A stretch of DNA of 64,000 nucleotides from Staphylococcus muscae (lineage in GTDB: Bacteria; Bacillota; Bacilli; Staphylococcales; Staphylococcaceae), in contig NZ_CP027848.1 of NCBI RefSeq assembly GCF_003019275.1, forward strand, positions 2,031,132 to 2,095,131, given 5' to 3'. Shown here in pieces: positions 8,291-28,705 of the stretch; position 1 is the first letter of the stretch; the number at the start of each line of letters is the position of its first letter. The position numbers and the translations under genes are program-made. Under the pieces are notes generated by a model. The model did no database searches. It saw only the letters and a program-made list of their open reading frames with translations, and was not told where the DNA came from.

Positions 8291-9622
8291 ATGACACATA
8301 TCCAGTTTGATTACAAAAAGGCACTACAATTTTTCGGGCAGCATGAATTAGAACAACAGCAAGATCAAGTGAAGCTGATTCATCGCACAATCCATGAAGG
8401 AACAGGCGCTGGCAATGATTTTTTAGGATGGGTTGATTTACCGGTTGACTATGATAAAGAAGAATTTGATCGCATTTTAAAAGCGGCAGAAGAGATTAAG
8501 TCACATTCAGATGTACTCGTTGTCATTGGTATTGGTGGCTCATATTTAGGTGCACGTTCAGCGATTGAAATGTTGACACCCGCATTTAAAAAGAATAATG
8601 ATTTACCAGAAATTGTTTTTGCAGGTCATCATCTTTCTTCATCTTATACACAAGAATTAATTGATTATTTAGAGGGCAAAGATTTCTCTGTGAATGTTAT
8701 TTCAAAATCAGGAACAACGACAGAACCAGCTGTGGCCTTCCGTTTATTTAAACAATTATTAGAAGAAAAATATGGTAAAGAAGAAGCGGTAAAACGTATT
8801 TTTGCGACAACAGATAAAGAAAAAGGTGCTTTAAAACAACTTGCGACAAATGAAGGTTATGCATCATTCGTAGTACCTGATGATGTCGGTGGACGTTTCT
8901 CTGTATTAACAGCAGTAGGTCTATTACCAATTGCAGTCGCTGGTATTGATATTCAAGCTATGATGTCAGGTGCAGCAAAAGCGCGTGAAGAATTGTCATC
9001 AGATGATTTATCACAAAACATTGCTTATCAATATGCATCAATTCGTAATGTGTTATACAACAAAGGTTATACAACTGAAATGTTAATTAACTACGAGCCA
9101 TCATTACAATATTTCAATGAATGGTGGAAACAACTGTTTGGTGAGTCAGAAGGTAAAGACTTGAAAGGTATCTATCCATCAAGTGCAAACTTTACAACAG
9201 ACTTACATTCATTAGGTCAATACGTTCAAGAAGGACGTCGTTTCCTATTTGAAACAGTTTTAAAAGTCGATACACCAAAGCATAATATTACAATTGAAGA
9301 AGACGCAGACGATTTAGATGGTCTTAACTATTTAGCTGGTAAAACAGTTGATGAAGTGAATACCAAAGCATTTGAAGGAACGTTATTAGCGCATACAGAT
9401 GGTGGCGTACCGAACTTGGTTATTACATTACCAAAATTGGATGCTGAAACATACGGCTATCTGGTTTACTTCTTTGAATTGGCTGTTGCGATGAGCGGTT
9501 ACCAATTAGGTGTGAATCCATTCAACCAACCTGGTGTAGAAGCATATAAACAAAATATGTTTGCATTGCTTGGTAAACCAGGCTTTGAAGATAAGAAAAA
9601 AGATTTAGAAGCACGTTTATAA
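8291..9622 (+). CDS. pgi: Glucose-6-phosphate isomerase
   Basis: A 443-residue isomerase interconverting glucose-6-phosphate and fructose-6-phosphate in glycolysis. It shows [15 protein letters not shown] (sugar-phosphate pocket), [16 protein letters not shown], and the C-terminal pattern [15 protein letters not shown] with the catalytic Lys region. The length equals the short Gram-positive form. The RBS AGGAGG lies 7 bases before the ATG. It is transcribed alone: a promoter precedes it, and the next coding feature on the same strand is spsB about 900 bases away. Confidence 0.97.
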
Positions 9623-9662
9623 TTGTATAAAAAATTTATAAGCAGTAGGAGATAGTCAATTC

Positions 9663-9794
9663 TATTGATATAGAACATAATGATATCTGTACAAAAACTC
9701 TCACAGTCGGTGGGGGTTTTTGTGTTATCATATGCATTTGAATTTATCATACAATCCATGTGTAATGATACTAGTGAGTTCTGGGTAAATAAAA
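9663..9794. pseudogene. Decayed tandem copy of the type I toxin-antitoxin locus
   Basis: This block repeats the intact locus that lies about 264 bases downstream. Shared parts in order are TATTGATATAGAACA, ATCTGTACAAAAAC, a terminator-like hairpin (9692-9722), TTATCATATGCATTTGAA, then a degenerate toxin region. On the minus strand the last codons (LYDKFKCI then stop) are intact. Upstream, the hydrophobic segment is altered (YPELTSIITHG), the frame runs into a stop (TGA) without a start codon, and no SD is seen. The hairpin pairs on the plus strand only by G-U wobbles and fails on the minus strand. The antitoxin -10 is also changed. I infer a duplication followed by toxin loss. Confidence 0.6.
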
Positions 9795-9897
9795 TTGGGA
9801 GCGAAAAGCCCTTTTTTTGTTCAGTATTTAACGGTTTTTCAGGATACAAACTCCTTGTATTTCAGCTATTTTTAACTAAATATAAGTTATGAATGGT

Positions 9898-9926
9898 TTG
9901 ATAAATAGTAGAAGTTAGAATATTAT
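9898..9926 (+). promoter_or_regulatory. Predicted promoter of the antitoxin RNA
   Basis: TTGATA, a 17-base spacer and TATTAT. Initiation would fall near 9933, just upstream of the repeat that pairs with the toxin start region. Confidence 0.6.
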
Positions 9927-9932
9927 ATTGAT

Positions 9933-9998
9933 ATAGAACACAACTACATCTGTACAAAAACCCCCACAGCCGTCTAAAGCAATGTGGGGGTTTTCTTG
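9933..9998 (+). ncRNA. Predicted antitoxin RNA of a Fst/PepA1-like type I system
   Basis: A short RNA of about 65 bases is predicted from the promoter at 9898-9926 to a strong hairpin (AAAACCCCCACA, 9957-9968, and TGTGGGGGTTTT, 9983-9994). Its 5' part carries CATCTGTAC (9947-9955). The same nine bases occur on the plus strand at 10097-10105, so the RNA is complementary to GTACAGATG on the toxin mRNA, which includes the toxin start codon. The RNA is also antisense to the 3' end of the toxin transcript through the shared terminator. Convergent RNAs with a shared terminator and direct repeats are the plan of the enterococcal par/Fst system. Expression is inferred. Confidence 0.6.
9957..9994. terminator. 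Bidirectional terminator shared by toxin mRNA and antitoxin RNA
   Basis: A perfect 12-bp stem, AAAACCCCCACA/TGTGGGGGTTTT, with a 14-base loop. It is followed by T-rich sequence in both directions (TTTTCTT on plus, TTTTTGT on minus). Confidence 0.8.
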
Positions 9999-10003
9999 TG
10001 CTA

Positions 10004-10099
10004 TCATATGCATTTGAATTTATCATACAAATAATTTGCAATGATACCAGTAATGACTGGGCAAATGATAGTTGTTGTTACTACAAATACAACCATCAT
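10004..10099 (-). CDS. Small membrane toxin, Fst/PepA1-like (type I toxin-antitoxin)
   Basis: A 31-residue ORF starting MMVVFVVTTT, with one hydrophobic span, the family-like core IICPVITGII, and a charged tail (YDKFKCI). Known Fst, PepA1 and related peptides share an I-x-x-P-V-I-x-G-like core in a single membrane helix with a short polar C-terminus. AAGGAGG lies 9 bases before the ATG, one of the strongest SDs in the window. The stop is followed on the same strand by a perfect terminator at 9994-9957. The start codon lies inside the nine-base element complementary to the predicted antitoxin RNA. Such peptides insert into and depolarise the membrane. I am confident that it is a gene, and fairly confident of the family from pattern only. 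Confidence 0.72.
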   Translation of the reverse strand: MMVVFVVTTTIICPVITGIIANYLYDKFKCI

Positions 10100-10119
10100 C
10101 TGTACGCACCTCCTTTCAA

Positions 10120-10510
10120 GTGGAAGTGTTATTTTAATATAACGTATAGTCATATATTTGGAAGTGGTTAATTTACAGTTTCAACTATATTTATTGCATA
10201 CTTATTTAAGTGTTTTTACAGAATGTTCATTGCTTTTCATACATTTTTAAACAATTTCTATCAAATAATTAGATATTAAAAATGGTGGAAGAAACACTGT
10301 GAATTATTGAAATATAGTAATGGGATGTAGTTTAGTGTGTGTTTTGCTGTCACTGTTTTGAAATGTGTGTGATATAGAAAACATTAACCCTTTGATTTAG
10401 TTATATGATATGATGAAAAGTACAGTTCAGACGAATTAATAAAGGCGTATCAATGATGTAGAATGAGATAGCTTATTTTTACATCTTGCGTCAGATATTT
10501 TTATCTTTAA
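10120..10510. other. AT-rich spacer before spsB
   Basis: I see no further ORF or strong hairpin here. A weak minus-strand pair, TTAACC and TATACG with 17 bases between, could be the toxin promoter near 10146-10174. TATGAT around 10408 may be part of the spsB promoter, but no good -35 accompanies it. Confidence 0.35.
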
Positions 10511-10522
10511 GAGGTGTCAATA

Positions 10523-11101
10523 GTGAAAAAAGAAACGATAGAATGGATTATTTCGATAGGACTAGCCCTCCTTATCGTTGGATTACTCTATACATTTGTA
10601 ATTAAACCATATAACGTACAAGGGGATTCAATGCATCCTACATTAAAAGACGGAGACCGTTTAATTGTGAATAAAATTGGTAAGACGTTAGGTCATCTGG
10701 ATAATGGGAATGTTATTGTATTCCATGCTGACGAATCAGCAGACTATGTAAAACGTATTATCGGAAAACCCGGTGATCATGTAGAATACAAAAACGATCA
10801 ATTGTATTTAAATGGTAAGAAAGTACATGAACCTTATCTTGACTATAACTTAAAACATAAGTCATACGATGAAATTACTGGACCTGTTAACTCTCAAGAT
10901 TTACAAGGGAGCAATGGAAAATATCAAATACCAAAAGATAAATATTTGGTGTTAGGGGATAATCGTGAAGTTAGCAAAGATAGTCGTACGATTGGCTTGA
11001 TTGATAAAGACCAAATCGTCGGTAAGGTTTCATTAAGATATTGGCCGGTAAGTGAATTCAAAGTCAACTTCAACCCAGATCATACAGAAGAAACACCATA
11101 A
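10523..11101 (+). CDS. spsB: Type I signal peptidase SpsB
   Basis: A 192-residue membrane protease that removes signal peptides from exported proteins. An N-terminal membrane anchor (residues about 7-28) is followed by the catalytic Ser36 in GDSMHPT and Lys77 in DYVKRIIGKPGD, then the GDNREVSKDSR box. The frame is open from a GTG at 10514, but that codon lies within the SD (AAGAGGTG). The GTG at 10523 gives the expected MKKETIEW start and 6-base spacing. In S. aureus an inactive paralogue, spsA, precedes spsB; none is present here, and the toxin-antitoxin locus occupies the interval. It also provides the processing enzyme for the secreted GlpQ and phosphatase of this window. Confidence 0.95.
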   Translation: MKKETIEWIISIGLALLIVGLLYTFVIKPYNVQGDSMHPTLKDGDRLIVNKIGKTLGHLDNGNVIVFHADESADYVKRIIGKPGDHVEYKNDQLYLNGKKVHEPYLDYNLKHKSYDEITGPVNSQDLQGSNGKYQIPKDKYLVLGDNREVSKDSRTIGLIDKDQIVGKVSLRYWPVSEFKVNFNPDHTEETP

Positions 11102-27817: not shown

Positions 27818-28705
27818 ATGAATCAATGGACAAAAACTTCAGCGGTACTTTTGGCGTTAGGTCTTGTGACAACATCTGTACCACATGATGCACAAGCTGG
27901 AAGTGATGTCGCCGTACAACAGCAGCAAATGACTGAGGAAGATGCAACAGCACAATTAGCTTCACAAAATATGATGGGCGTGGCTTGGTATCAAAATTCT
28001 GCTGAAGCTAAGGCACTATATGCACAAGGTTACAATTCAGCGAAAGAAGCACTAGATGAACAAATTAAAAAACATAAAGGCGGGAAAAAGCTAGCCATTG
28101 CTTTAGATATTGATGAAACGGTATTAGATAACTCACCATATCAAGCATATAATACATTGCAAGGTGCATCATTCCCTGATGGTTGGCATGAATGGGTACA
28201 ATCAGCGCAAGCAAAACCTGTTTATGGGGCAAAAGATTTCTTGAAATATGCAGATGAGCACGATGTAGAAATTTTTTATGTCTCAGATCGTTCTCATGAA
28301 GAAGACCTTCAAGCAACGATTAAAAACTTAAAACAACAAGGTTTACCACAATCTGATGAAGCACATGTATTGCTTAAAAAAGAAGGGGAACATGGCAAAA
28401 CAGAACGCCGTGATCGCATTAAAACAGAATATCGCCTTGTACAATTATTCGGTGACAACTTGTTAGATTTTGATGAGCCGAAAGTAGCGACACTTGAAGG
28501 ACGTGAAACATTCGTAAAACAACATGAAGATGATTTTGGTAGCAGATATATCATCTTCCCGAATCCAATGTACGGTAGTTGGGAAGCCACTTTATACAAC
28601 AACGACTACAGCATCAGCGCTGAGCAAAAATCTGAATTACGTCAATCATCCATTACTTACTTTGACCCAGAAACACAACAGTTGAAACAAGGTGCAGTTA
28701 AATAA
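27818..28705 (+). CDS. Secreted acid phosphatase, 5'-nucleotidase e(P4)-like
   Basis: A 295-residue HAD class III acid phosphatase. Residues 1-27 form a signal peptide ending DAQAG; there is no lipobox Cys, so unlike Haemophilus e(P4) the protein would be cut by signal peptidase I and released. The catalytic motif ALDIDETVLDN is near residue 97, a second acidic motif is FYVSDRS, and the DxxxD-type motif is LFGDNLLDFDE. Such enzymes release phosphate from nucleotides and other monoesters at the cell surface. The SD is AAGGGTGATG close to the ATG. It lies between clpB and yjzD, each separated by terminators, and is an independent cistron. Confidence 0.88.
   Translation: MNQWTKTSAVLLALGLVTTSVPHDAQAGSDVAVQQQQMTEEDATAQLASQNMMGVAWYQNSAEAKALYAQGYNSAKEALDEQIKKHKGGKKLAIALDIDETVLDNSPYQAYNTLQGASFPDGWHEWVQSAQAKPVYGAKDFLKYADEHDVEIFYVSDRSHEEDLQATIKNLKQQGLPQSDEAHVLLKKEGEHGKTERRDRIKTEYRLVQLFGDNLLDFDEPKVATLEGRETFVKQHEDDFGSRYIIFPNPMYGSWEATLYNNDYSISAEQKSELRQSSITYFDPETQQLKQGAVK

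Follow-up and report, generated by a model that had tools for sequence, protein, structure and literature searches.

The gap between pgi, which encodes glucose-6-phosphate isomerase, and a downstream type I signal peptidase gene in the Staphylococcus muscae chromosome holds a compact set of features arranged as in par/Fst-type toxin–antitoxin modules (Table 1). The window, as we call the whole stretch of DNA that was analysed, is 64,000 nucleotides long. Matches to NF010697 and TIGR02227 support the flanking genes given in the original prediction, pgi and spsB; the latter name follows staphylococcal usage. By eye, S. canis, S. agnetis and S. simulans (L035–L038) have an apparent second signal-peptidase-like gene between pgi and spsB. 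In the same comparison, the window lacks this gene between 9622 and 10514, and modules occupy the gap instead.

Table 1. Features of the pgi–spsB region in the window
Feature	Position	Strand	Remarks
pgi, glucose-6-phosphate isomerase, upstream neighbour	8291..9622	+	NF010697, 766.8 bits
Degraded tandem copy	9635..9796		antitoxin half and shortened hairpin retained
Hairpin of degraded copy	9689..9725	+	first terminator-like hairpin found after pgi
Toxin C-terminal remnant of degraded copy	9731-9796	-	
Candidate par/Fst-type module	9898-10163		S. muscae chromosomal window
Antitoxin promoter, TTGATA-N17-TATTAT	9898..9926	+	10/12 matches
Predicted antitoxin RNA, ~67 nt	9933..9999	+	ends deduced from promoter position and terminator
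Antitoxin copy of repeat CATCTGTAC	9947..9955	+	core of a longer interrupted repeat
Bidirectional terminator hairpin common to both RNAs	9957..9994		perfect 12-bp arms 9957-9968/9983-9994
Toxin ORF, 31 aa	10004..10099	-	including stop codon
Repeat CATCTGTAC across toxin start codon	10097..10105	+	GTACAGATG on minus strand
Shine-Dalgarno of toxin mRNA, AAAGGAGGTG	10108..10117	-	same place in relatives
5′ stem-loop burying the Shine-Dalgarno, CACTTCC / GGAGGTG	10108..10128	-	RNA folding
Probable toxin promoter, TTCCAA-N16-TATATT	10136..10163	-	8/12 matches, weak -35
Type I signal peptidase, spsB-like, downstream neighbour	10514..11101	+	TIGR02227, 181.3 bits

Putative toxin gene and predicted convergent antisense RNA

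The original prediction placed on the minus strand a 31-codon reading frame preceded by a strong Shine-Dalgarno sequence, and both are found there. The encoded peptide, MMVVFVVTTTIICPVITGIIANYLYDKFKCI, has one hydrophobic stretch, which by its composition should form a helix, and the PxxxG motif lies within it as PVITG. When six toxin ORFs are compared in pairs, divergence is greatest at the third codon position and smallest at the second in 15 of 15 pairs. The toxin mRNA stretch is predicted to fold far more strongly than its shuffles (z = -6.7), with the Shine-Dalgarno sequence buried in a 5′ stem-loop; in longer folds of nine leaders, the partner that pairs with this sequence varies between relatives. 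Within the window ORF the start codon also lies in a hairpin, the chance of an unpaired start being 0.001, a value reached by 3 of 300 synonymous shuffles. Since this hairpin was not conserved among the eight relatives folded, we do not count it as a feature of the family. No upstream helix was seen, as the first 12 nt of the folded stretch are unpaired in both the minimum free energy and the centroid structure, with the caveat that the start of the stretch is not a mapped mRNA 5′ end.

On the plus strand, the proposed convergent promoter and the perfect bidirectional terminator are both present, and together they predict an RNA of about 67 nt, close to the roughly 65 bases first suggested. 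A covariance model of the antitoxin (R1) recovers this RNA at E = 2.5e-9, although the sequence itself is among the 12 that built the model. As had been claimed, the nine-base repeat CATCTGTAC occurs both in this RNA and across the toxin start codon. A third, unrelated occurrence lies at 27873, making three in 64 kb against 0.35 expected, and none of 100 shuffles contained three. The predicted pairing between toxin and antitoxin RNAs extends beyond the nine bases to 22 pairs with interruptions (-24.0 kcal/mol, matched by none of 1000 shuffles), in agreement with the suggestion that the RNA could pair over the toxin start.

The promoters differ in quality: in the test for convergent promoters, that of the antitoxin matches at 10 of 12 positions and that predicted for the toxin at only 8, with a weak -35 element. 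Four promoter-like sites were counted in the 1.1-kb region, below the shuffle mean of 6.9, so that the antitoxin promoter gains weight only from promoters at the same place in relatives. The terminator scan of this region returned zero because its loop limit was 8. These regional scans, which show no excess, and the shortness of the individual features are what could be said for a chance assembly, in which an AT-rich gap with a terminator for pgi happens to contain a short ORF and a nine-base repeat that both arose at random. Such a reading has to account for the relatives of the module, to which we now turn.

Conservation among relatives

The peptide search covered 84 staphylococcal genomes, that of the window and 83 others. 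Similar peptides, which the original prediction had proposed to seek in staphylococci, were found at E ≤ 1e-7 in seven of the 83 (E = 2.2e-10 to 8.5e-8); the window ORF and the peptides of five of these seven genomes made up the peptide alignment. Many matches above E = 0.1 lay inside long frames and were treated as noise, and a match in G065 (L016, E = 0.04) was set aside for want of a terminator. The seven relatives and several weaker ones share the same plan. A leader arm of the GCACTTCC type stands opposite the Shine-Dalgarno sequence and is followed by a peptide either of the ICP-xx-TG...NY-x-YD-K kind or with an S-xxx-G core, then by a C/G-rich terminator and finally by a second copy of the start region.

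In the short leader fold, the Shine-Dalgarno sequence is wholly or mostly paired at all 14 module places measured. An antitoxin promoter with at least 9 of 12 matches lies 29–36 nt from the hairpin in 13 of the 14, S. rostri being the miss. The YUNR motif, which is not universal in par/Fst systems, occurs in the toxin-strand loop at 12 of 14 places and appears as UUUA in the terminator loop of the window toxin RNA. At one place, L006 (G009:C33:27883-28005), the loop part of the terminator hairpin is reversed relative to close relatives, and for this reason the antitoxin model matches both of its strands. A genome from another genus of the same family (L159, G092:C1:1746695-1746757) also gives two matches to the window peptide clade, the better at E = 1.3e-8.

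Conservation of the ORF and the repeat had been set beforehand as a test of the proposal. Start region and post-terminator sequence could be compared at 14 of 16 places, L016 and L024 being dropped because the pattern found no terminator, and in all 14 the shuffle fraction of their match is ≤0.002. Subgroups differ in the repeat, yet at 11 of 14 places no partner matches a start region better than its own; of the three exceptions, L004 lies at a contig edge, and L014 and L017 are narrowly outscored from within their own subgroup. The window repeat has a match score of 14, the lowest of the complete modules (17–24 in the others), with only the contig-edge L004 (11) below it. Cognate matching despite subgroup divergence is what a requirement for pairing predicts. 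Moreover, the conservation of both peptide and layout refutes the chance reading, to which we assign next to no probability.

The par/Fst plan suggested for the locus is thus present in nearly all its parts and conserved in relatives together with cognate-matching repeats. We consider it very likely that the locus is a chromosomal type I toxin–antitoxin module that would act like par of pAD1, and, judging from its sequence, the module is real and probably still working. According to this model, the minus strand would give rise to a toxin mRNA, presumably a stable one, with its Shine-Dalgarno sequence, and here its start codon too, locked in hairpins. The convergent promoter would yield the antisense RNA, which would make first contact with the mRNA at the loop of the shared terminator and then pair over the start codon and the first codons, blocking ribosome initiation. 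Should the supply of antitoxin drop, translation of the mRNA would begin, and the resulting one-helix peptide would insert into the membrane and arrest growth.

Peptide clade, known systems and plasmid relatives

The marks of par/Fst systems described in PMC7472228 are convergent promoters, a bidirectional terminator, repeats over the start, a stem-loop at the Shine-Dalgarno sequence, an upstream helix and PxxxG. By that account, par of pAD1 from Enterococcus faecalis (Fst / RNA II) resembles the window module in its convergent RNAs, its bidirectional terminator with a YUNR loop, the repeats covering the toxin start, the stem-loop burying the Shine-Dalgarno sequence and the one-helix PxxxG peptide. 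It differs in that the window fold has no upstream helix, the window peptide has few C-terminal charges and the window module is chromosomal. This comparison is one of descriptions rather than sequences, and the window peptide is probably related to canonical Fst, at the profile level only.

SprA1/SprA1AS (PepA1) and SprA2/SprA2AS (PepA2) of S. aureus are staphylococcal Fst-type modules, in which the antisense RNA works at ribosome loading according to PMC6393315 and PMC4885055. The Fst family carries a tryptophan, and its staphylococcal members a cysteine after PxxxG, as stated in PMC7472228, and by this description PepA1 and PepA2 stand apart from the window peptide. The window peptide has no tryptophan, whereas the family has a conserved one before the charged C-terminus (valine in the prototype), and its tail reads DKFKCI. 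Nor does a cysteine follow its PxxxG directly, PVITG being followed by I; among the PF13955 matches listed, most also have no cysteine at this position.

Library searches placed the window peptide in no family of Pfam or NCBIfam and gave no match in PDB, and the window place is not among the matches of PF13955 or NF033608. The Rfam covariance search, suggested earlier as a check, did not recognise the module either: Rfam gave no match at E ≤ 1 on 2.5 kb, and fstAT (RF01797) matched at E ≤ 1 neither there nor on the module-containing L001. Among 5.8 billion predicted proteins, the peptide matched only itself, frames of this length being rarely predicted. The relatives gave weak hits in Pfam and NCBIfam (NapE, SBF, Psb35, CcmD and the like), which lay far below cut-off and were dismissed as noise. 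NF033608 and RF01797 do recognise other loci of this genome. At L105 (G000:C1:1359300-1359950), a canonical Fst-type module with an intact toxin frame scores 38.5 bits with NF033608, over the cut-off, and 21.4 of the 36 bits required by PF13955. At L104 (G000:C1:698100-698700), a further par-type locus, the antitoxin matches RF01797 with 78.9 bits, over the cut-off, and the toxin frame, as read, has an early stop codon.

Profile comparison of the window clade with canonical Fst gives an hhalign probability of 89.6%, a score reached by none of 100 column shuffles; an initial run under different settings yielded 18.3%. With the canonical Fst peptide model, 8 of 2000 shuffled peptides scored above the window peptide. 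Through the antitoxin covariance model a third peptide clade came to light, whose core reads ICPIIVG or ICPITVG; it joins the window clade at 95.5% and canonical Fst at 93.3%. Its members (L141, L126, L128, L129, L144 and L147) lie on plasmid-sized contigs and one chromosome, and neither of the two tested reached a Pfam or NCBIfam cut-off. The S-xxx-G clade joins the window clade at 97.0%; it does not join canonical Fst (9.7%, a score equalled by 1 of 100 shuffles) or the third clade (0.5%). On these data the window peptide belongs to a separate clade with a probable tie to Fst, by profile comparison only. Because the tryptophan, the cysteine and the upstream helix are missing and no library matches, we do not rank the module as a member of the curated family; it would work like par/Fst as a probable diverged relative, outside the family in the sense of the curated models. 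The mechanism is known in kind, and the clade is missing from the libraries searched. Searches of open-licence papers brought up no report of this peptide clade or of a pgi–spsB module, though an earlier mention is possible.

In the plasmid and phage records searched, the window peptide itself has no match. Its relative from G038 is found in eight plasmid records, all from Staphylococcus and all mobilizable (E = 0.2–0.8, 79–83% identity over the full length), and the S-xxx-G clade in 68 plasmid records, 66 of them from Staphylococcus (best E = 5e-8). The eight G038-type records and the 30 S-xxx-G records listed have no annotation under the match, two of the 30 being wholly unannotated; this is weak evidence because the PLSDB gene table is incomplete. 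In both plasmid records that were opened the peptide adjoins replication genes: repB in the first, and a replication-associated gene preceding repB in the second. The clade occurs on small mobilizable staphylococcal plasmids, and the module was probably acquired from such an element.

These plasmid relatives bear on the idea of a non-toxic regulatory membrane peptide tuned by the antisense RNA, serving for example protein export or sugar metabolism. The module does adjoin pgi, and PMC7472228 describes chromosomal par loci near sugar genes, one with an antitoxin lacking a preceding terminator. On the other hand, relatives sit on plasmids beside replication genes, and several close species have an empty or decayed pgi–spsB gap. 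Both are expected of a selfish module and not of a housekeeping regulator, and we regard this idea as quite improbable. An addiction module of par type, the reading we prefer, would make the clade one of such modules on staphylococcal plasmids whose tested members are missed by current Pfam, NCBIfam and Rfam models.

Tandem copies, decay and the 3′ end of pgi

The intact module is preceded by a degraded tandem copy, in which the antitoxin half survives along with a hairpin of reduced length. Close species, ordered by the identity of their signal peptidase to that of the window, are G074 (99%, the closest relative), G073 (92%), S. microti (91%), S. americanisciuri (89%) and S. rostri (89%). In S. 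rostri the module occupies the corresponding gap, with one complete copy starting with GTG and a second in which a 30-codon frame is open and, by eye, Shine-Dalgarno sequence and start are lacking. As the two window copies are 76% identical to each other and the first window copy is only 53% identical to either S. rostri copy, a single duplication shared by both tandems is unsupported. In G074 the hairpin remains together with the antitoxin stretch, which the model matches at E = 3.9e-6 and which is 86% identical to the downstream window copy; this genome has lost both the toxin and the toxin promoter here, and by eye the antitoxin -10 seems weak. By eye, the gap of G073 holds at most a Shine-Dalgarno-like remnant, and those of S. 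microti and S. americanisciuri show no module, the peptide search there giving nothing or one long-frame match (E = 0.26).

The module is not essential, given that G074 has no intact copy and that none is seen by eye in S. microti and S. americanisciuri. In this species group it is decaying, toxin first. The stages of decay (a complete copy with a defective second, antitoxin only, nothing) can be compared across related species, so that explanations for the persistence of such modules on chromosomes can be put to the test.

A hairpin with CACACG/CGTGTG arms directly follows pgi in G073, S. microti, S. rostri and S. americanisciuri, and is missing from the window and G074. In these two, the first hairpin found starts 67 nt past the stop codon and is part of a module copy; in the window, this hairpin of the degraded copy separates pgi from the intact module. 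The missing pgi terminator alone is weak evidence, since 7 of 29 sequences gave no hairpin at all in the scan. PMC7472228 reports a missing terminator before the E. faecalis chromosomal antitoxin, and chromosomal par loci near sugar genes. It is a tentative and rather unlikely proposal that pgi has recruited the module as its terminator or 3′ end, with pgi transcription running into or feeding the antisense RNA. If true, it would tie toxin control to sugar metabolism and account for the longer survival of the antitoxin half; whether this half is preserved by a terminator role once the toxin is lost becomes testable.

Another reading holds that the whole locus is a decayed, non-functional remnant, its peptide readable only through recent acquisition and its hairpin retained to end pgi transcription. 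The degraded tandem copy speaks for this, as do the weak toxin promoter and the broken or absent toxin at 16 of 39 antitoxin-like places, G074 included. So does the finding that a module hairpin comes first after pgi in both the window and G074, in contrast to the four relatives with a separate pgi hairpin. Yet in the downstream copy ORF, Shine-Dalgarno sequence, start-codon repeat, terminator loop and antitoxin promoter are all intact together, and differences from relatives fall mostly at third codon positions. We therefore consider a remnant unlikely and a working toxin–antitoxin module the better reading.

The 39 antitoxin-like places derive from 40 of 41 rows at E ≤ 1.5e-4, after the contig-edge row G079:C137:8533-8587 was left out and two G009:C33 rows were merged as one place. 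Twelve of the 39 built the covariance model, and the search starts from the antitoxin side. A toxin ORF is present at 22 places, broken or absent at 16 and unjudged at one (L111, at a contig edge); at L127, an ORF given by the script was set aside by eye as spurious. Some of the 16 may be plain terminators. Retention of a type I antitoxin after toxin loss, as in G074, has a counterpart in zor/orz of E. coli, where antitoxin-only loci occur and expression of the orphan RNA has been shown, according to PMC11264685; the families are unrelated, and the orphan RNA of G074 is a predicted one. Five of the 16 toxin-less places (L132, L133, L134, L145 and L146, in G033, G034, G072, G035 and G079, respectively) have a common upstream sequence and no toxin ORF by script, and these five hairpins possibly represent a conserved antitoxin-only element.
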